A DNA stretch of 64,000 nucleotides, from the NCBI GenBank assembly GCA_007988785.1, contig BJUU01000013.1, positions 1 through 64,000 of the forward strand. Reading direction: 5' to 3'. This document shows, piece by piece, positions 4,799 through 59,501 of this stretch; position 1 is the stretch's first letter, and every line of letters starts with the position of its first letter. The position numbers and the translations under genes were made by a program. Source of the stretch: Agrococcus baldri (GTDB lineage Bacteria > Actinomycetota > Actinomycetes > Actinomycetales > Microbacteriaceae). Under the pieces are notes generated by a model, which was given only the letters and a program-made list of their open reading frames with translations, was not told where the DNA came from and ran no database searches.

Positions 4799-5658
4799 CT
4801 AGAGCTTGACGCCCGTCATCATCGCCTGCTTGACCTCGGCGATCGCCTTGGTGACCTGGATGCCGCGCGGGCACGCATCCGTGCAGTTGAACGTCGTGCG
4901 GCAGCGCCAGACGCCCTCGCGGTCGTTGAGGATGTCGAGGCGCACCTGGCTCGCCTCGTCGCGCGAGTCGAAGATGAAGCGGTGCGCGTTCACGATCGCG
5001 GCCGGCCCGAAGTACTGGCCGTCGGTCCAGAACACCGGGCACGAGGTCGTGCACGCGGCGCAGAGGATGCACTTCGTGGTGTCGTCGAAGCGCTCGCGCT
5101 GCGCGATGGTCTGGTGGCGCTCCTTCTCGGGCTTCGAGGAGGCCTGCAGGAAGGGCTGGATCTCGCGGAAGGAGTCGAAGAACGGCTCCATGTTCACGAT
5201 CAGGTCCTTCTCGAGCGGCAGTCCCTTGATGGCCTCGACGTAGATGGGCTTCGAGGTGTCGAAGTCCTTCACGAGCGCCTTGCAGGCGAGCCGGTTCTTG
5301 CCGTTGATGCGCATCGCGTCCGAGCCGCACACGCCGTGCGCGCACGAGCGGCGGAATGCGAGCGACGGGTCCTGCTCCCACTTGATGCGGTGTAGGGCGT
5401 CGAGGATGCGCTCGGTGGCGAACATCTGCACGTCGTAGTCGACCCAGCGCGGCTCGTCGTCGACCTCGGGGTCGTAGCGGCGCACGATGACGGTGACGGG
5501 GAAGCTCTGCGGCTCCTCGACGGCCTCGCCCGCCTCGAGCGGGCGGTCGTGCCCCTCCTGCGCCGAGTCGACCTCGGCGGGCGCGGTGCCGCCCTCGGTC
5601 TGCGCAGCCTGGGCGGCCGTCTCCTCGCCGGGCGTTCCGGTCACCTGCGTGGCGGCCA

Positions 5659-5659
<1 letters not shown>
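4799..5659 (-). CDS. sdhB: Succinate dehydrogenase iron-sulfur subunit
   Basis: 286 residues. Carries electrons from the flavoprotein to the membrane subunits of complex II. The cysteine sets are all present: [2Fe-2S] in RRSCAHGVCGSDAM plus the later RLAC, and the two cubane-type clusters in CILCAACTTSCP and CRTTFNCTDACPRG. A 45-residue acidic, Ala/Glu-rich N-terminal extension precedes the usual start of the family (about SFPVTVIVRRYDP) and is probably dispensable. The ATG overlaps the sdhA stop by one base, so it is last in a sdhCDAB operon. Confidence 0.97.
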
Positions 5660-7446
<1,787 letters not shown>

Positions 7447-46207: not shown

Positions 46208-47524
46208 ATGAAGATCGCCGTGATCGGATGCGGTTACCTGGGTGCCGTGCACGCGGCCGCGATGGCCTCGCTCGGCTACGAGACCGTGGGCGTCGACGTC
46301 GACGAGGCGAAGATCGAGCGGCTGCGCCGCGGCGAGCCGCCCTTCTACGAGCCCGGCCTGCCGGAGCTGCTGAAGGCCGGCGTCGACGCCGGCACGCTGC
46401 GCTTCACGACCGACGTGAGCGAGGTCGCGGGCAGCGACGTCGTCTTCATCGCGGTGGGCACGCCGCAGCGCGCCGGCTCCGACGCCGCAGACCTCACCTA
46501 CGTCGACGCCTCGATCGAGTCGCTGCTGCCGCACATCGGCGAGGGCACGCTCGTGGCGGGCAAGTCGACCGTCCCGGTCGGCACCGCGCAGCGGCTCGCC
46601 GACATCGTCGCGCCCACCGGCGCCGCGCTCGCCTGGAACCCCGAGTTCCTGCGCGAGGGCTTCGCCGTCGAGGACACCCTCACCCCCGACCGCCTGGTGT
46701 ACGGCGTCGCCGACGGGGACGACGCATCCGTCGCCAGGCTCGACGAGGTGTACGCGGGCATCCTGGCGCGCGGCACCGACCGCCTGGTGGTGAACTTCGC
46801 CACCGCCGAGCTCGTGAAGGTGAGCGCCAACGCCTTCCTGGCGACGAAGATCTCGTTCATCAACGCCATGGCCGAGCTGTCGGAGACGGTCGGCGCCGAC
46901 GTCACCCAGCTCGCCGACGCCATCGGCCTCGACGCGCGCATCGGCCGCCGCTTCCTGAACGCCGGGCTCGGCTTCGGCGGCGGCTGCCTGCCGAAGGACA
47001 TCCGCGCCTTCCAGGCCCGCGCCGACGAGCTCGGGCACGGGCAGACGCTCGGCTTCCTGCGCGAGGTCGACCAGATCAACCTGCGCCGCCGCGACCGCAT
47101 GGTCGCGCTCATCGACGGCGAGCTCGCGGCCGTCGGCGGCGACCGCGTGGCGATGCTGGGCCTCGCGTTCAAGCCCAACAGCGACGACGTGCGCGACTCG
47201 CCGGCGCTGGATGTCTCGCGCACGCTGCAGGAGCGGGGCCGCGTCGTGAAGGCGTACGACCCCGAGGCATCCGAGACCGCGCGCCGCTCGGTGCCGACGC
47301 TCGAGATCGTCGGCTCGGTCGACGAGGCCATCCGCAACGCCGACGTGCTCGCGCTCGGCACCGAGTGGCAGCAGTTCCGCGACCTCGACCCGGCGGAGGT
47401 CGCCACCAAGACCGCCGCGCGCGTGATCGTCGACGGCCGCAACACGCTCGACGCTCGGGCGTGGGCCGCCGTCGGATTCAAGGTCATCGGGCTCGGCCGT
47501 CCCGACACCGCGCCCGCAGCATGA
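46208..47524 (+). CDS. ugd: UDP-glucose 6-dehydrogenase
   Basis: 438 residues. Oxidises UDP-glucose to UDP-glucuronate with two NAD+. NAD-binding MKIAVIGCGYLGAVHAAAMA at the N-terminus, the PVGTAQRL and EFLREGFAVEDT sugar-binding motifs, and the catalytic Cys in GFGGGCLPKD near residue 261. C-terminal UDP-binding domain present. GAAGAGGAGC precedes the ATG. It overlaps purK by four bases although the pathways differ; UDP-glucuronate probably feeds surface polysaccharide made by downstream glycosyltransferases. Confidence 0.95.
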   Translation: MKIAVIGCGYLGAVHAAAMASLGYETVGVDVDEAKIERLRRGEPPFYEPGLPELLKAGVDAGTLRFTTDVSEVAGSDVVFIAVGTPQRAGSDAADLTYVDASIESLLPHIGEGTLVAGKSTVPVGTAQRLADIVAPTGAALAWNPEFLREGFAVEDTLTPDRLVYGVADGDDASVARLDEVYAGILARGTDRLVVNFATAELVKVSANAFLATKISFINAMAELSETVGADVTQLADAIGLDARIGRRFLNAGLGFGGGCLPKDIRAFQARADELGHGQTLGFLREVDQINLRRRDRMVALIDGELAAVGGDRVAMLGLAFKPNSDDVRDSPALDVSRTLQERGRVVKAYDPEASETARRSVPTLEIVGSVDEAIRNADVLALGTEWQQFRDLDPAEVATKTAARVIVDGRNTLDARAWAAVGFKVIGLGRPDTAPAA

Positions 47525-48642
47525 TCGTCGGCGTCGTCGGCGGCGGGCAGCTCGCCCGCATGATGATCCCCGCCGCGGTCGAGCTGGGCGTCGAGATCCG
47601 CGTGCTGGCCGAGAGCGAGGGCATGTCGGCCTCGCTCGCGGCCACCGCCGTCGGCGACTATCGCGACGCATCCGTCGTGCTCGCCTTCGCGGAGGGCGTC
47701 GACGTCGTCACCTTCGACCACGAGCACGTGCCGCAGCCGGTGCTGCGCGCGCTCGTCGACGCCGGGCACGCCGTGCACCCGGGGCCGGATGCGCTGCGCT
47801 TCGCGCAGGACAAGCGCGAGATGCGGGCCAAGATGGCCGAGCTCGGCGCGCCGCAGCCCGACTGGGCGCCGGTGGATGAGCCGGCCGACCTCGAGCGGTT
47901 CCTCGCCGACCACGGCGGCGTCGGCGTCGTGAAGACCGCCACCGGCGGCTACGACGGCAAGGGCGTGCGGGTGGTGCGCTCGGTCGAGGAGGCGCGCGAC
48001 TGGCTCGAGGGCGCCGCGAGCGGCGGCCCGCGGCTGCTGGTGGAGGAGCTCGTGCCCTTCCGCCGCGAGCTCGCGCAGCTCATCGCGCGCCGTCCCTCGG
48101 GCGAGGCGGTCGTGTGGCCGCTCGTGCAGACGGTGCAGCGGGAGGGCATCTGCGTCGAGGTGCTGGCGCCCGCGCCGCACGCGGCGAGCATCCAGCCGGT
48201 CGTCGACGACGTGGCGCGCACGGTCGCGGAGGGCATCGGCGTCACGGGCGTGCTGGCGATCGAGATGTTCGAGACGAGCGACGGCCGGGTGCTCGTGAAC
48301 GAGCTGGCGATGCGGCCGCACAACTCCGGCCACTGGAGCATCGACGGCTCGGTGACCAGCCAGTTCGAGCAGCACCTGCGGGCCGTGCTCGACCTGCCGC
48401 TGGGATCGACCGCGCTGCTGGCGCCCGCGAGCGTGATGGTGAACGTGATCGGCGGGCCGGCCTCCGGCTCGATGACCGACCGCTACCCGGGCGCGCTCGC
48501 CGCGCATCCGGATGTGAAGGTGCACTCCTACGCCAAGTCGGCGCGCCCCGGCCGCAAGGTCGGCCACGTCACCGCGGTCGGCGACGACATGGACGAGGTC
48601 GCCTACCGCGCCCGCGCGGCCGCCGCCCACTTCGACGCCTGA
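47521..48642 (+). CDS. purK: N5-carboxyaminoimidazole ribonucleotide synthase
   Basis: 373 residues. ATP-grasp enzyme that carboxylates AIR in purine synthesis. VGVVGGGQLARMMIPAAVEL at the N-terminus, the ATP-binding VVKTATGGYDGKGVRVV, and NELAMRPHNSGHWSIDG are diagnostic. Its product goes to PurE, whose gene is usually adjacent; here the two are separated by 1.5 kb holding a DUF559 gene and four hairpins. Confidence 0.95.
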   Translation: MIVGVVGGGQLARMMIPAAVELGVEIRVLAESEGMSASLAATAVGDYRDASVVLAFAEGVDVVTFDHEHVPQPVLRALVDAGHAVHPGPDALRFAQDKREMRAKMAELGAPQPDWAPVDEPADLERFLADHGGVGVVKTATGGYDGKGVRVVRSVEEARDWLEGAASGGPRLLVEELVPFRRELAQLIARRPSGEAVVWPLVQTVQREGICVEVLAPAPHAASIQPVVDDVARTVAEGIGVTGVLAIEMFETSDGRVLVNELAMRPHNSGHWSIDGSVTSQFEQHLRAVLDLPLGSTALLAPASVMVNVIGGPASGSMTDRYPGALAAHPDVKVHSYAKSARPGRKVGHVTAVGDDMDEVAYRARAAAAHFDA

Positions 48643-48738
48643 GCCGCCGCGCGCCCGCGCCCCGCTCCGCCCGGCCCTCGCCGCCCCGCCAGCCGTCGCC
48701 GCCTCGCGCCGTCGCCGCCGCGAACCGTCGACCTGTCG

Positions 48739-48796
48739 GCGAGCTTCCCCAAATGGTGCGGTTGCGCGCCAAACCGCCCCATTCGGGGAAGCTCGC
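48739..48796. repeat. 58-bp hairpin unit 1 (left pair)
   Basis: Starts GCGAGCTTCCCC and ends GGGGAAGCTCGC. The 25-base arms differ at two positions and enclose an 8-base loop (GCGCGCCA). One of four units of identical length around the DUF559 gene. Confidence 0.92.
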
Positions 48797-48810
48797 GGGC
48801 GGCGTGCTTG

Positions 48811-48868
48811 GCGAGCTTCCCCGAATGGTGCGGATGGAGGCGAATCCGCGCTGTTTGGGGAAGCTCGC
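48811..48868. repeat. 58-bp hairpin unit 2 (left pair)
   Basis: Same ends as unit 1 (GCGAGCTTCCCC / GGGGAAGCTCGC) with arms of 25 and loop GGAGGCGA. The four differences between arms are all changes that keep G-T wobble pairing when the plus strand folds. Separated from unit 1 by exactly 14 bp. Confidence 0.92.
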
Positions 48869-48893
48869 CGGAGGGCGCGTTGGCGCGCGAGCG

Positions 48894-49871
48894 TCAGTCT
48901 GCGAGCAGCCAGCCGTCTTCGACGGTCGGCGGTTCGTCGCACCAGTCGGCGATGGGCGGAGGACGCCGCTCCGGGTCCCAGCGCTGGCGGACGCGATCGA
49001 GGATCGCTCGGAGCCGCTCGCGGGTCTCAGCGCGGGTGGTGACCAGCAGCCGATGCGGTTCGAGGTCGAGCCGCTGGTACAGGTTGTAGCGATCGATGTC
49101 GGTGACCCACTGCTCGCGATCGACACGGTGATGGTCGCCCTCGACCTCGATGACGAGTCCTGCCGGCCAGATGGCGGCATCGGGAGCGAGCTCGATGCCG
49201 TCGAGCACCACCGGGACGTTCCACCAGACGGGTGGATCGCCGAGCGCCCGCAGCTCGAGCCTCGCGATCGTCTCGGACGCGGAACGGGACTGCGGGCTCA
49301 CGAGCTGTGCGGCCGCGAGCAGGCGGCGATGGCCGCGGCGACCGCGATGCGCGTCGATCGCCTCCCGCAGCTCGCCGGCAGCCGCTCTCGGCTGCCGCTG
49401 CTGGACGACCGAGTCGCCCAGCGCGACGAGATCGGCGAGAGAGAGGACGTCGGTCGCATCCACGAAGGTCTGGGCGGGCGTGGTGACGCGGATGCCGTCC
49501 AGCAGCATCAGCTGCGTCTCGTCCTGGACGCGCTGCCGGCCGCGCAGACCTGAGCCGCGCGGGGCGTGCATGGGTGCGGGCATCGTTGCGTCGATGCGAT
49601 CGAGCTCCCGCAGCCGCGGGGGCAACCAGAGCTCGTGCAGATGGGCGGCCGTTGCATGGCTGATCCACGCGTCCGGACCGACCGCGAGCAGCGCGGCGCG
49701 GGACCGATCGACGATGCCGAGCTCCGCGCTCGCGTCTGCCCACACCCCGTGGTGCAGCTGCTCGACGCGATCGCTGCGCAGTCGCCGGGCGCCGACGCCG
49801 AGCTCCGCGGCATCGGTCGCGGTGAAGACGCCGCCCTGCAAGGCGGCCGGCAGGGCCCATCCGTCGCTCAT
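48894..49871 (-). CDS. AbiEi-like/DUF559-type nuclease-fold protein inside a hairpin-bracketed island
   Basis: 325 residues from ATG 49871 ([11 protein letters not shown]); no clear ribosome site. N-terminal 50 residues ([20 protein letters not shown]) look like the AbiEi winged helix; the middle has [20 protein letters not shown] as in AbiEi-type antitoxin proteins; the C-terminal 90 residues are a PD-(D/E)xK-like unit: [46 protein letters not shown]. The Asp of PDAAIW and Glu pair of VIEVEGDHH would bind metal. Two 58-bp hairpins lie 25 bp past its stop and two start 75 bp before its start codon. Function unknown; a DNA-processing role on the hairpins is speculation. Confidence 0.85.
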
Positions 49872-49924
49872 GAGCGGGAGGATCGCATGCCGCCGCGCAC
49901 CGACTCGATGCTCGCGCGATGGCT

Positions 49925-49936
49925 TGTGGAGAGACG
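49925..49936 (-). promoter_or_regulatory. CGTCTCTCCACA element upstream of DUF559 gene 2
   Basis: Minus strand reads CGTCTCTCCACA, 54 bp upstream of the ATG at 49871 and identical to the element 52 bp upstream of DUF559 gene 1 (11822-11833). The right hairpin pair begins ten bases beyond it. Confidence 0.5.
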
Positions 49937-49945
49937 ACGCGTTCG

Positions 49946-50003
49946 GCGAGCTTCCCCGAATCGTGCGCCTGCGCCGCGAATCGCACCATCTGGGGAAGCT
50001 CGG
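49946..50003. repeat. 58-bp hairpin unit 3 (right pair)
   Basis: Starts GCGAGCTTCCCC, ends GGGGAAGCTCGG. Outer 12-base arms pair nearly perfectly; inner arms are more diverged than in the left pair. Same length as the other units. Confidence 0.88.
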
Positions 50004-50017
50004 GGCCGCGGGTGGCG

Positions 50018-50075
50018 GCGAGCTTCCCGAGATGGAGCGGTTGGGCGAGGAAACGCGCGATTCAGGGAAGCTGGG
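50018..50075. repeat. 58-bp hairpin unit 4 (right pair)
   Basis: Starts GCGAGCTTCCCG and ends GGGAAGCTGGG; most diverged of the four but again 58 bp, and again exactly 14 bp from its partner. It lies upstream of purE, where a terminator would not be expected. Confidence 0.82.
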
Positions 50076-50136
50076 CGGATGGGTGCGCGGCGAGGCGCGT
50101 CGGCCGGCGGTCGGGAGCGCGGCTACCCTTGAGCCC

Positions 50137-50640
50137 ATGCCTGCGCAGGTCAGCATCATCATGGGATCGGACTCCGACTGGCGGGTCATGGAGGCGGCGA
50201 GGGCCGTGCTCGATGAGCTCGGCGTCAGCTCGGAGGTCGACGTCGTCTCGGCGCACCGCACGCCGCAGAAGATGGTCGACTTCGCGCGCGGTGCCGCCGA
50301 CCGCGGTGTGCGCGTCATCATCGCCGGCGCCGGCGGCGCAGCCCACCTGCCCGGCATGGTCGCGTCGATGACGCGGCTGCCGGTGATCGGCGTGCCCGTG
50401 CCGCTCGAGAAGCTCGACGGCCTCGACAGCCTGCTCTCGATCGTGCAGATGCCCGCCGGCATCCCGGTCGCGACCGTCTCGATCGGCGGCGCCCGCAACG
50501 CCGGCATCCTCGCCGCCCGCATGCTGGGCGCCTTCGACGCCGAGCTGGGCGCACGCCTCGACGCCTTCGCCGCCGAGCTCGAGCGGCAGGTGGGCGACAA
50601 GGCGCAGGCGCTGCGCGACCGCGTGGAAGCTGGCGCATGA
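50137..50640 (+). CDS. purE: N5-carboxyaminoimidazole ribonucleotide mutase
   Basis: 167 residues from ATG 50137. Class I Pur[31 protein letters not shown] (catalytic His) and [21 protein letters not shown] (50124-50129) lies seven bases before the ATG, so it now has its own leaderless promoter, as needed after separation from purK by the hairpin island. Overlaps the LCP gene by four bases. Confidence 0.95.
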
Positions 50641-58550: not shown

Positions 58551-59501
58551 TTACCAGAGCCCGAGGCGCAGCACCAGGTCGAGCCAGCGGCGCTCCGCCG
58601 GCTCGCGGCGCAGCTCGGGCACGAGCCGGCGCAGCGCCGCTCGGGAGGCGAAGTCGCTGCGCTGGAACAGGGGAGCGATGCGCTCGAGCCGCGACTTCGT
58701 CTCGCCGGTCGCGAGCGAGGCGGCGAGGGTCGCGATCGACGCGCACTGCTTGCGGTAGTCGCCGCTCGCGAGCCTGCGGGCGCGTCGCAGCGCGGGCCGC
58801 AGCCCCGTGTTGGCCCCGGTGGCGTTGCTGTCGTGCTGGCGGTAGTCGATGGTCGGCGTCGGGTCGATGCGCCAGCGGTGGTCGGTGGCGCGGGCGATCG
58901 CGTAGACGATCCAGTCGTGCGGCACCGTCTCGTCGACGAGCGGGTGCGCCTCGATCACCTCCCGAACCGCGGCGAACAGCTGGGGCGTGAGCACGAAGGT
59001 GCAGCCGGGCCCGGCCGACTCGAGCAGGTAGTCGAGCTCGGTCTGCGGCTGCGACTTCTCGAGGTACTCGCTGCGCTCCGAGCCGTCGGGCCGCACCCAG
59101 TAGGCGGTGACGGAGGAGGAGATGGCGTCGAGCTCGTGCTCGGCCATCAGTGCCAGCTGCCGCTGGTAGCGGTCGAGGTGCCAGCGGTCGTCCTGGTCGG
59201 CGAGCGCCACGGCCGCCGCGCCGCTCACGTCGGCGTCGCGCACCAGGCGCAGGAAGTTGGCCTGCGGCGTGCCGAAGCGGCCGGGCGGCAGGATGACGAT
59301 GCGCTCGTCGCCGAACCCGCGCAGGATCTCGAGCGTCGCATCCGTCGACGCATCGTCAGAGACCACCAGCCGCACCTCGACGCCCTGCTGGCCGAGGATC
59401 GTGCGGGTCTGCTCCTCGACGAACTCGGCGCCGTTGTGGGTCGCCATGAGCACGACGACGAGCGGCAGCGCAGGGGCGCTCTCGGCGTGCTCGTCAGTCA
59501 T
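58551..59501 (-). CDS. GT2-family glycosyltransferase
   Basis: 316 residues from ATG 59501 behind GGAGGG. GT-A fold: PLVVVLMATHNGAEFVEEQT, VSDDASTDATLEIL, ALADQDDRWHLDRYQRQLAL with the metal-binding DQDDRW motif, and a later YRQHDSNATG. This pattern is typical of RgpB/WfgD-like rhamnosyl- or glucosyltransferases for O-antigen and rhamnan. It is divergent from an RgpF-like gene, supporting a role in rhamnose-containing wall glycan. Confidence 0.9.
   Translation of the reverse strand: MTDEHAESAPALPLVVVLMATHNGAEFVEEQTRTILGQQGVEVRLVVSDDASTDATLEILRGFGDERIVILPPGRFGTPQANFLRLVRDADVSGAAAVALADQDDRWHLDRYQRQLALMAEHELDAISSSVTAYWVRPDGSERSEYLEKSQPQTELDYLLESAGPGCTFVLTPQLFAAVREVIEAHPLVDETVPHDWIVYAIARATDHRWRIDPTPTIDYRQHDSNATGANTGLRPALRRARRLASGDYRKQCASIATLAASLATGETKSRLERIAPLFQRSDFASRAALRRLVPELRREPAERRWLDLVLRLGLW

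Follow-up and report, generated by a model that had tools for sequence, protein, structure and literature searches.

The stretch of DNA analysed here (the window, 64,000 nucleotides of contig BJUU01000013.1 of Agrococcus baldri) carries a nuclease-family gene that lies between two cognate palindromic units, and dispersed intergenic copies of the palindrome are found mainly in gene-carrying genomes. On the basis of sequence comparison, we consider it somewhat probable that the gene and its palindromes form a resident gene-plus-repeat unit with a REPIN/RAYT-like way of working and an unrelated enzyme.

The purK-purE locus and its palindromes

The features of the locus are as follows.

47521..48642, + strand: purK, the left neighbour (Pfam ATP-grasp and PurK_C)
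48739..48796, no strand: palindrome 1a, 58 bp, on the 3' side of the nuclease gene (23/25 arm positions pair)
48811..48868, no strand: palindrome 1b, 58 bp, 14 bp from 1a (21/25 arm positions pair)
48894..49871, - strand: 325-aa nuclease-family gene, its product AbiEi-like in the N-terminal part and with a Vsr/DUF559/MTES_1575-like nuclease domain
48993..49274, - strand: predicted nuclease core, residues 200-293 (39-sequence alignment, MTES_1575/DUF559 family matches, and PDB 3hrl)
49737..49847, - strand: AbiEi_4-like N-terminal segment, residues 9-45 (Pfam AbiEi_4, E 2.7e-5)
49946..50003, no strand: palindrome 2a, 58 bp, on the 5' side of the nuclease gene (19/25 arm positions pair)
50018..50075, no strand: palindrome 2b, 58 bp, 14 bp from 2a and the most degenerate of the four (17/25 arm positions pair)
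50137..50640, + strand: purE, the right neighbour (Pfam AIRC)

A first-pass annotation had described four 58-bp hairpins, starting at 48739, 48811, 49946, and 50018, with exactly 14 bp within each pair. All of these positions were reproduced, and the 14-bp gap in pairs 1a/1b and 2a/2b gives a 72-bp period. The gene does lie between the two pairs, as described, and its reading frame ends in a stop codon and has no internal stops. However, the DUF559 label given to it did not hold for the window protein, which matched neither the curated Pfam DUF559 model nor the REase_MTES_1575 model.

When folded as single-stranded DNA, palindromes 1a, 1b, 2a, and 2b gave z-scores of -7.4, -7.8, -3.9, and -2.5, respectively, and 0, 0, 0, and 4 of 200 shuffles each folded as well. 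The half-site of the palindrome is CGAGCTTCCC...GnGCG. The arm motif GAGCTTCCCC is enriched in the window, with 14 sites at ≤1 mismatch compared to 5.4 expected, and 0/100 shuffles reached 14. The palindromes called hairpins are real, but in most sets the arms resemble conserved inverted half-sites rather than hairpins maintained by compensating changes. In the window's own genome (G000), 82.2% of cells were paired compared to 81.9% in shuffles, with no compensatory excess. Across six sets, compensation was clearly above shuffles in G008 (5 copies) and slightly above in G010, not above in G000 and G001, and below in G002 and G017, and a hairpin kept for its structure was rejected. A known RNA was also rejected. 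The six Rfam matches in 48500-50300 (E ≤ 0.5) were all to miRNA models and were taken as hairpin artefacts, as they fell well below the gathering scores.

Palindromes in Agrococcus genomes and around distant homologues

Palindromes of the 58-bp type and of a 57-bp type were counted at ≤1 mismatch in 24 Agrococcus genomes, with carriers defined by an orthologue at E ≤ 1e-30 (6 carriers, A. terreus among them, and 18 non-carriers). The carriers contained 24 (G000), 26 (G002), 8+1 (G008), 4+15 (G001), 20 (G010), and 11 (G017) copies (58-bp + 57-bp types), a range of 9 to 26 with at least 9 in 6/6; a separate count for G000 gave 26 palindromes. Among the non-carriers, G014 contained five copies, G004, G015, and G022 one each, and the other 14 none. 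More than one copy was thus present in 1/18, and the other 17 had one copy or none. The five palindromes in G014, all of the 57-bp type and in a genome with no orthologue, count against the gene-repeat link. Fisher tests, uncorrected for ancestry, gave 0.0016 for ≥1 copy and 5.2e-5 for ≥2 copies, the latter threshold being picked after the counts had been seen. Outside the genus, the 58-bp pattern (≤2 mismatches) was found once in 1/16 relatives (G029), with its interior unpaired by eye.

The 13 dispersed loci of G000 sit between called genes (the gene calling is crude), apart from a 34-bp overlap with a short ORF at one of them. At least 10 of the 13 have counterparts among the loci retrieved from other species, mostly palindrome loci; many sites are common to several species, indicating that many copies are old and that spread is slow or old. 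Tandem 70-72-bp arrays were present at 8/13 dispersed loci in G000 and 8/11 retrieved dispersed loci in G002, and the gene flanks are paired in both genomes. In G008, G010, and G017, no two copies among those listed were <100 bp apart, and the gene flanks are single. The dispersed copies follow the layout of the unit beside the gene, with paired flanks accompanied by tandem arrays and single flanks by solitary copies.

Palindromes bracket each of the six orthologues. Among 95 distant homologues, strong palindromes lay within 300 bp of 69, flanking 39 of them on both sides and 30 on one side. The remaining 26 had no strong flanking palindrome, which counts against the partnership reading. Three of the weak paralogues in the host genome were covered (a fourth, at C19, was outside), and two of these three, L039 and L040, had no strong flanking palindrome. 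Among the distant homologues, the left palindrome matches the right one within a locus, and the sequence differs between loci; left-right similarity exceeded the 99th cross-locus percentile in 34/39 two-sided loci. Over all 101 loci, palindrome density was 2.01/kb within 300 bp compared to 0.076/kb beyond 500 bp, and 3/199 shuffled flanks scored as palindromic. In the purE-flank negative control, 6/20 loci had a one-sided palindrome. Three of these six are purK-purE intervals with another unit (G006, G008, and G018), and the other three (G001, G004, and G005) contain other palindromes. Because this control is unclean, the shuffled flanks and the comparison by distance serve as the controls here. 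The organisation proposed in the first-pass annotation, similar to that of REPIN/RAYT, was supported, in that dispersed copies track the gene, every orthologue is bracketed, and many distant homologues are cognately bracketed. Although the palindromes are found genome-wide, their occurrence goes with that of the gene, and they persist in the relatives that have retained it.

A second palindrome type (GGTACCGA..., GGTACC) was present in 6/6 genomes in which its gene was predicted, a result that stood when the flanking copies used to derive the pattern were excluded. Three genomes predicted to be free of the GGTACC type contained 0 (G000), 2 (G008), and 1 (G010) copies, and two of the three negative predictions (G008 and G010) therefore failed. 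Palindromes were shared in 8/8 pairs at ≥80% protein identity, 18% of 56 pairs at 60-80%, 5% of 65 pairs at 50-60%, and 0-1% of pairs below 50%, so that a palindrome is common to near relatives only. Co-divergence of protein and palindrome was tested over the 73 loci that had one palindrome or more and was unsupported (Mantel 0.107, permutation maximum 0.143).

The palindromes could in principle be ordinary terminators or unrelated REP-like repeats, with the gene as a chance passenger among them. The position of the dispersed G000 loci is in line with this, as 11/13 lie ≤70 bp from the 3' end of some called gene. However, there were no terminator-like sites in 48600-50200, copy number follows the gene, and the palindromes match left to right within a locus and not between loci. 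We regard this explanation as highly improbable.

The protein and the sites of its gene

The window protein scored 24.6 bits against Pfam AbiEi_4 (E 2.7e-5), for which the curated cut-off is 25. A PADLOC AbiEi model matched its residues 9-142 at E 8.2e-13, and PADLOC AbiEi models also matched the N-terminal half in two orthologues. Since only 2/39 aligned family members match AbiEi_4 at E ≤ 0.01, the label AbiEi is a weak one for homologues other than the orthologues. For the C-terminal domain, REase_MTES_1575 (PF18741) matched 30/39 and DUF559 (PF04480) 20/39 aligned family members at E ≤ 0.01, and the G002 orthologue matched MTES_1575 at E 0.029, below the cut-off. The family profile matched PDB 3hrl (E 7.6e-4) and, weakly, the mobile-intron protein PDB 3r3p (E 0.15), which we take to be Vsr-like. 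E200, R204, D231, H248, and D258 are invariant across the 39 aligned sequences, and E242, G245, and Q254 are present in ≥90%. The conserved acidic residues fit a PD-(D/E)XK core, and knowledge of this fold suggests a catalytic role for them. No Y1 (HUH) transposase model matched the window protein and two orthologues (Pfam, E ≤ 10) or the 39 homologues (Pfam, E ≤ 0.01). Homologues at E ≤ 1e-25 were present in 223/398 genomes of the host family.

The PADLOC matches to the window protein and two orthologues would also fit an anti-phage or toxin-antitoxin gene of the AbiE kind, with the palindromes as operators or self-marks. This is very unlikely, as the partner gene is absent: the neighbours are purK and purE, with no adjacent gene for an AbiEii (nucleotidyltransferase-like) toxin. 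Moreover, an operator model gives no role to the dispersed copies or to the palindromes on the 3' side.

Among 23 purE-containing genomes, the unit was seen between purK and purE only in G000 and G002. In 16 relatives, the purK-purE gap is 36-331 bp and free of the gene, which agrees with the earlier view that an inserted unit splits the two genes. These gene-free intervals are too variable between relatives for a target-site duplication to be defined. In G006, G008, and G018, the interval is occupied by a different homologue with different palindromes. The orthologues of G001, G008, G010, and G017 share one other site. The gene and its flanking palindromes co-occur at these two different sites and appear to have been swapped together. 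Between G001 and G010, the four neighbouring genes are 90.5-96.1% identical, the nuclease is 60.5% identical, and the palindrome type has changed. In G001, the gene and flanks look to have been swapped as a cassette, with old-type dispersed repeats left behind. No matching gene was found in G001 between the 57-bp palindromes at 828772 and 830411. Carriage by mobile replicons was rejected, as the window protein was found in 1/72,556 plasmid records (E ≤ 1e-8), and L143 in 3/72,556 plasmid records (E ≤ 1e-10) and 1/50,697 phage records (E ≤ 1e-8).

Replacement in G001, occupation of purK-purE by different homologues, and the weak kinship with 3r3p are what would be expected of a selfish homing-type cassette, which would cut unit-free or other-type alleles so that recombination copies the whole unit, with solo palindromes as leftovers of lost units. 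The same holds for G008, where a homologue with other palindromes follows a lyase-family gene; in G000, solo palindromes follow the same gene. However, G000 and G002 each have about 13-14 palindrome loci and one orthologue, and it takes fewer assumptions for the palindrome itself to have spread directly than for serial gene loss to have left clean 72-bp tandems. Such a cassette is therefore rather improbable.

It is also unlikely, though less so, that the protein is a DNA-binding factor serving the host, with the dispersed palindromes as regulon or chromosome-organising sites, the flanking ones as autoregulatory sites, and the nuclease rarely or otherwise used. The uncompensated half-sites in most sets would suit such a factor, as would the modest copy number (26 in G000) and the intergenic position of the dispersed sites, with the same interval often occupied in several species. 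An AbiEi antitoxin is reported to bind inverted repeats and to regulate its own expression (PMC7319586). On the other hand, the gene is missing from 18/24 Agrococcus genomes, and 17 of these non-carriers have at most one repeat copy. Palindromes are often present at both ends of the gene, beyond the promoter side, the gene occupies two sites with an apparent cassette swap, and the predicted catalytic residues show little or no variation across 39 sequences.

Proposed unit and comparison with known systems

For the resident gene-plus-repeat unit, the N-terminal part of the protein is predicted to bind both inverted half-sites as double-stranded DNA, and the nuclease domain may then nick or cut at or beside the palindrome. 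Repair or recombination would, rarely, copy the palindrome into intergenic sites or, alternatively, replace a palindrome already at the site. The gene and repeats would mostly be passed on as part of the chromosome, with rapid turnover of the recognition sequence. The conserved, uncompensated arms in most sets speak for this unit, as does the reported binding of inverted repeats by an AbiEi antitoxin (PMC7319586). We give even chances to the broader proposal of a new, Actinomycetota-wide class in which each AbiEi-Vsr-like nuclease would own a private palindrome of ~50-70 bp at both ends, spread or replace it across intergenic sites, and change specificity quickly, with rival units displacing each other where they share a site, as at purK-purE.

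REPIN/RAYT, the known example of a resident bacterial enzyme linked to dispersed short chromosomal palindromes, is described as a chromosomal gene with dispersed extragenic palindromes, in pairs or tandem clusters and with mostly vertical inheritance (PMC3116915 and PMC8049555). The Agrococcus system is similar in its flanking by an associated palindrome, the extragenic copies in all 6 carriers, the paired or tandem units, and the probably mostly vertical inheritance. However, the enzyme is AbiEi-like and Vsr/DUF559-like, whereas that of REPIN/RAYT is a Y1 tyrosine transposase. The system would work like REPIN-RAYT but is not a member, as it lacks a Y1 transposase. It also differs in having 9-26 copies per carrier rather than hundreds, in a palindrome sequence that varies from homologue to homologue, and in compensatory changes, which are described as common in REPINs (PMC3116915) and were not seen in most sets here.

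The aligned family shares its C-terminal domain with the Vsr-like DUF559 and REase_MTES_1575 nucleases but differs from those described in its association with palindromic repeats; no such link turned up in the open full-text literature searched. Like the antitoxins of type IV AbiE systems, the window protein resembles AbiEi models in its N-terminal half, with a score just under the curated cut-off for AbiEi_4. Unlike in AbiE systems, there is no toxin gene beside it, a nuclease-like domain is fused, and palindromes are both dispersed and on both sides. With Vsr-like homing endonucleases (3r3p), the family has in common a weak profile kinship (E 0.15) and cassette-like replacement. In contrast to these, the gene is intergenic, outside any intron, intein, or coding sequence, and its cognate palindromes also stand alone.

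A nuclease gene with its own palindromes looks like an undescribed gene-plus-repeat partnership. If true, the genome signature of REPIN/RAYT would also belong to another enzyme class unrelated to the first, and this way of life would have arisen more than once. Many actinobacterial genes of obscure role would gain a function. Because the palindrome sequence differs among homologues, the family would also lend itself to work on changes in the DNA sequence that a nuclease recognises.

The purK-purE locus and its nuclease-family protein

One gene of a nuclease family lies between purK and purE, bracketed by two pairs of palindromes:

47521-48642, + strand: purK, left neighbour
48739, 48811, 49946 and 50018 (starts): four palindromes bracketing the nuclease gene, each exactly 58 bp, with 14 bp within each pair
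48894-49871, - strand: nuclease-family gene, 325 aa plus stop; sole gene between purK and purE
50137-50640, + strand: purE, right neighbour

The first-pass annotation had described the same four 58-bp hairpins, 14-bp spacing and gene position, and re-measurement reproduced them. The arms pair at 23 of 25 positions at best and at 17 of 25 at worst, and single-strand folding gave z-scores of -7.4 to -2.5. Another strong palindrome in the window (58586-58641, 56 bp) has a different sequence.

The N-terminal part of the window protein matched PADLOC AbiEi (E 8.2e-13) and Pfam AbiEi_4 (E 2.7e-5, slightly below the curated cut-off). Among 39 aligned family members, REase_MTES_1575 was matched at E ≤0.01 by 30, DUF559 by 20 and AbiEi_4 by only 2, so the nuclease label is firmer than the AbiEi label for the family as a whole. 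The first-pass annotation had called the gene DUF559-type; the window protein on its own did not match the DUF559 model. In searches of the PDB, the family profile found the endonuclease-like protein 3hrl (E 7.6e-4), PvuRts1I (8e-3) and the mobile-intron protein 3r3p (0.15). L148, E200, R204, D231, H248 and D258 are invariant across the 39 sequences, and E242, G245 and Q254 are conserved in at least 90% of them; we take these residues to be the active site of a Vsr-type PD-(D/E)XK nuclease. A defence gene is one reading of a protein with these matches, and a less serious rival. In the orthologue of G017 (L064, near 2442-2475), the N-terminus apparently runs on in another frame, so that the start is possibly shifted or misplaced.

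Dispersed palindromes and their link to the gene in Agrococcus

The 3.16-Mb genome of the window (G000) contains 26 copies of GAGCTTCCCC-N34-GGGGAAGCTC with up to 3 mismatches, against 1 for the reversed-pattern control. Orthologues of the window protein (E ≤1e-30) occur in 6 of 24 Agrococcus genomes, and all six are bracketed by palindromes of a 58-bp or a 57-bp type. With up to 1 mismatch, the counts of the two types (58-bp/57-bp) were 24/0 in G000, 26/0 in G002, 8/1 in G008, 4/15 in G001, 0/20 in G010 and 0/11 in G017; a lone 57-length match in G000 was excluded as chance because its interior is unpaired. The first-pass annotation had suggested searching for the 58-bp unit and asking whether genomes without the gene lack it. 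Copies are genome-wide in G000 and tied to the gene across the 24 genomes, and among the 18 genomes without an orthologue (a few incomplete) 14 had none, G004, G015 and G022 had 1 each, and G014 had 5. The association was significant for at least two copies (Fisher's test, 5.2e-5, at a threshold picked after the counts were seen) and for at least one copy (0.0016), both uncorrected for shared ancestry. Outside the genus, the 58-bp pattern was matched once, unpaired, in 1 of 16 relatives. The five palindromes of G014 are of the 57-bp type, with the orthologue absent at E ≤1e-30; this genome has possibly lost the gene. The reading with the best support is that a resident nuclease is partnered with a palindrome of its own, and the serious rival is that the palindromes belong to a host regulon or a chromosome-organising factor.

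The dispersed copies mirror the arrangement of the palindromes flanking the gene. Where these flanks are paired, in G000 and G002, the copies form 70- to 72-bp tandem arrays at 8 of the 13 dispersed loci in G000 and at 8 of the 11 that were fetched from G002. Where they are single, in G008, G010 and G017, no two listed copies lie less than 100 bp apart. In G010 and G017, the 3' palindrome reaches into the final codons of the orthologue's open frame. By crude gene calling, the 13 dispersed loci of G000 all lie between called genes (one overlaps a short open reading frame by 34 bp), and at 11 of them a called gene has its 3' end no more than 70 bp away. Plain terminators are a less serious rival account of palindromes so placed; in the window, no terminator-like sites were found at 48600-50200, and Rfam matches over 48500-50300 all stayed below their gathering scores.

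A second palindrome type (GGTACCGA) behaves like the first, with exceptions. From the flanks of other homologues, it was predicted to be present in G001, G002, G014, G015, G017 and G022 and absent from G000, G008 and G010. Each of the six genomes predicted to have it did so (7, 8, 1, 3, 3 and 3 copies, respectively); the flanking copies that gave the pattern were one or two in five of the six, and at least one copy was left in each without them. Only one of the three absence predictions held (none in G000), as G008 had 2 copies and G010 had 1. In addition, G004, which carries a gene with a related type, had 5 copies, and G012, which was outside the paralogue search, had 1. No copies were found in the 13 other genomes or with the reversed control.

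Distant homologues and probable replacement at shared sites

We examined 95 distant homologues, comprising 37 from Agrococcus (all 34 non-orthologues of nine genomes and 3 of G000) and 58 from other genera of Microbacteriaceae, which were picked among the best-scoring matches and are not a random sample. A strong palindrome (45 to 85 bp) was present within 300 bp on both sides of 39, on one side of 30 and on neither side of 26. Over these and the six orthologue loci (101 in total), palindrome density fell from 2.01 per kb close to the genes to 0.076 per kb at distances above 500 bp. Of 199 shuffled flanks used as a control, 3 scored. The palindrome type varies between loci, yet left matches right within a locus (median similarity of 31 versus 6.5 for random locus pairs; 34 of 39 exceed the 99th percentile). 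The flanks of purE, first taken as a negative control, had a one-sided palindrome in 6 of 20 cases, but this control is compromised by other units and palindromes that reside at purK-purE itself.

A phylum-wide search found homologues (E ≤1e-20) in 76 of 296 genomes. Under a laxer rule (40 to 90 bp, within about 600 bp), at least one palindrome was present at 9 of 26 loci outside Microbacteriaceae and both sides were occupied at 3, versus 3 of 4 loci inside the family. Outside the family, AL755_RS00945 of Arthrobacter sp. ERGS1:01 (NZ_CP012477.1; WP_054009319.1, annotated "hypothetical protein") has matching palindromes, one 49 bp before the start and the other overlapping the stop. A further homologue of the window's own genome lies at G000:C19:32696-33562, and the unannotated 6.7-kb phage record MT837503.1 holds one at 5022-5984 with 33.7% identity to locus L143.

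The proposed insertion between purK and purE was supported by empty sites: the interval is gene-less and 36 to 331 bp long in 16 relatives. Three of these intervals, in G001 (L099), G004 (L088) and G005 (L087), hold palindromes of other kinds, which would make purK-purE a possible landing site of a general sort. In G006, G008 and G018, the interval is occupied by another homologue, which has other palindromes, and half of such a unit lies at a contig end of G010. In G023 (L258), about 2.1 kb containing something other than a family homologue separates purK from purE; purE was not found in G003.

Orthologues have two locations. Those of G000 and G002 sit at purK-purE; the other four (G001, G008, G010 and G017) share a site with an acetyl-CoA synthetase gene on one side and a RidA-like gene on the other. 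Between G001 and G010, four neighbors are 90.5 to 96.1% identical and the nuclease only 60.5%. The flanking palindromes of G001 are of the 58-bp type and 15 dispersed ones of the 57-bp type (e.g., L261, L263, L268 and L269). The simplest reading is that gene and flanks were replaced as a cassette in G001, with the dispersed 57-bp copies as relics of the former resident. A homing-type cassette is a less serious rival here. In the pair G010 and G017, whose palindromes are of one type, the nuclease (78% identity) has diverged about as much as its neighbors (80 to 90%). After the same lyase-family gene, solo palindromes are present in G000 (L028) and a homologue carrying GTGCACCG palindromes of its own in G008 (L166). 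The sequences to the left of L028 and to the right of L029 (G000 C4, about 25.9 to 37.1 kb) adjoin each other in G002 (L047) and G008 (L166). These two genomes therefore lack a palindrome-bounded stretch of about 11 kb that G000 has, and recombination may take place at palindromes.

Palindrome arms, proposed mechanism and known systems

Several results argue against simple, active transposition of the palindromes. Of the 13 dispersed G000 loci, at least 10 could be matched to fetched loci of other species (9 of them by alignment of both flanks), although these were fetched mostly for carrying palindromes and the count is not a census. The counterparts sometimes bear another type at the same interval, indicating that sites are long-lived or preferred while their sequence can change type. 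Copies within one genome are mostly divergent, and only close homologues have a palindrome sequence in common (all 8 pairs with ≥80% protein identity and 18% of the 56 pairs with 60 to 80%); a Mantel test over 73 loci was not significant. Compensatory change was not in excess in G000, with 82.2% of cells paired versus 81.9% in shuffles. Among six sets, pairing was clearly above shuffles in G008 (5 copies), slightly above in G010, not above in G000 and G001, and below in G002 and G017. The arms thus resemble a pair of inverted half-sites for a protein, not a hairpin maintained through compensatory change. The half-site blocks are an outer CGARCTTCCC and, in G000, an inner G-n-GCG. In the alignment of G000 palindromes (A5), columns 13 and 46 form a G-T apposition in the folded form of 11 of the 26 copies. 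T-G mismatches are the substrate of Vsr enzymes, and the correspondence may be a coincidence.

If a resident nuclease is indeed partnered with a palindrome of its own, we propose that the AbiEi-like part would bind the inverted half-sites, by analogy with an AbiEi antitoxin that is reported to bind inverted repeats (PMC7319586). The nuclease part would cut at or near them. Judging from the site and cassette comparisons, repair or recombination could then copy or replace palindromes elsewhere, and could exchange the whole gene-plus-palindrome cassette.

An AbiE system was ruled out, with no AbiEii neighbor, as was a homing endonuclease in a gene for this locus. The likeness to REPIN/RAYT, drawn at first pass from the organization, lies in the way of working, as described in PMC3116915 and PMC8049555. 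However, the window protein and its family failed the enzyme test that defines REPIN/RAYT, and the compensatory changes reported for it are absent here in most sets. No description of a nuclease-family gene tied to palindromic repeats was found in full-text searches of open papers. We rate the link between gene and palindrome as new in kind; it would be less so if the mechanism were plain REPIN-like transposition.
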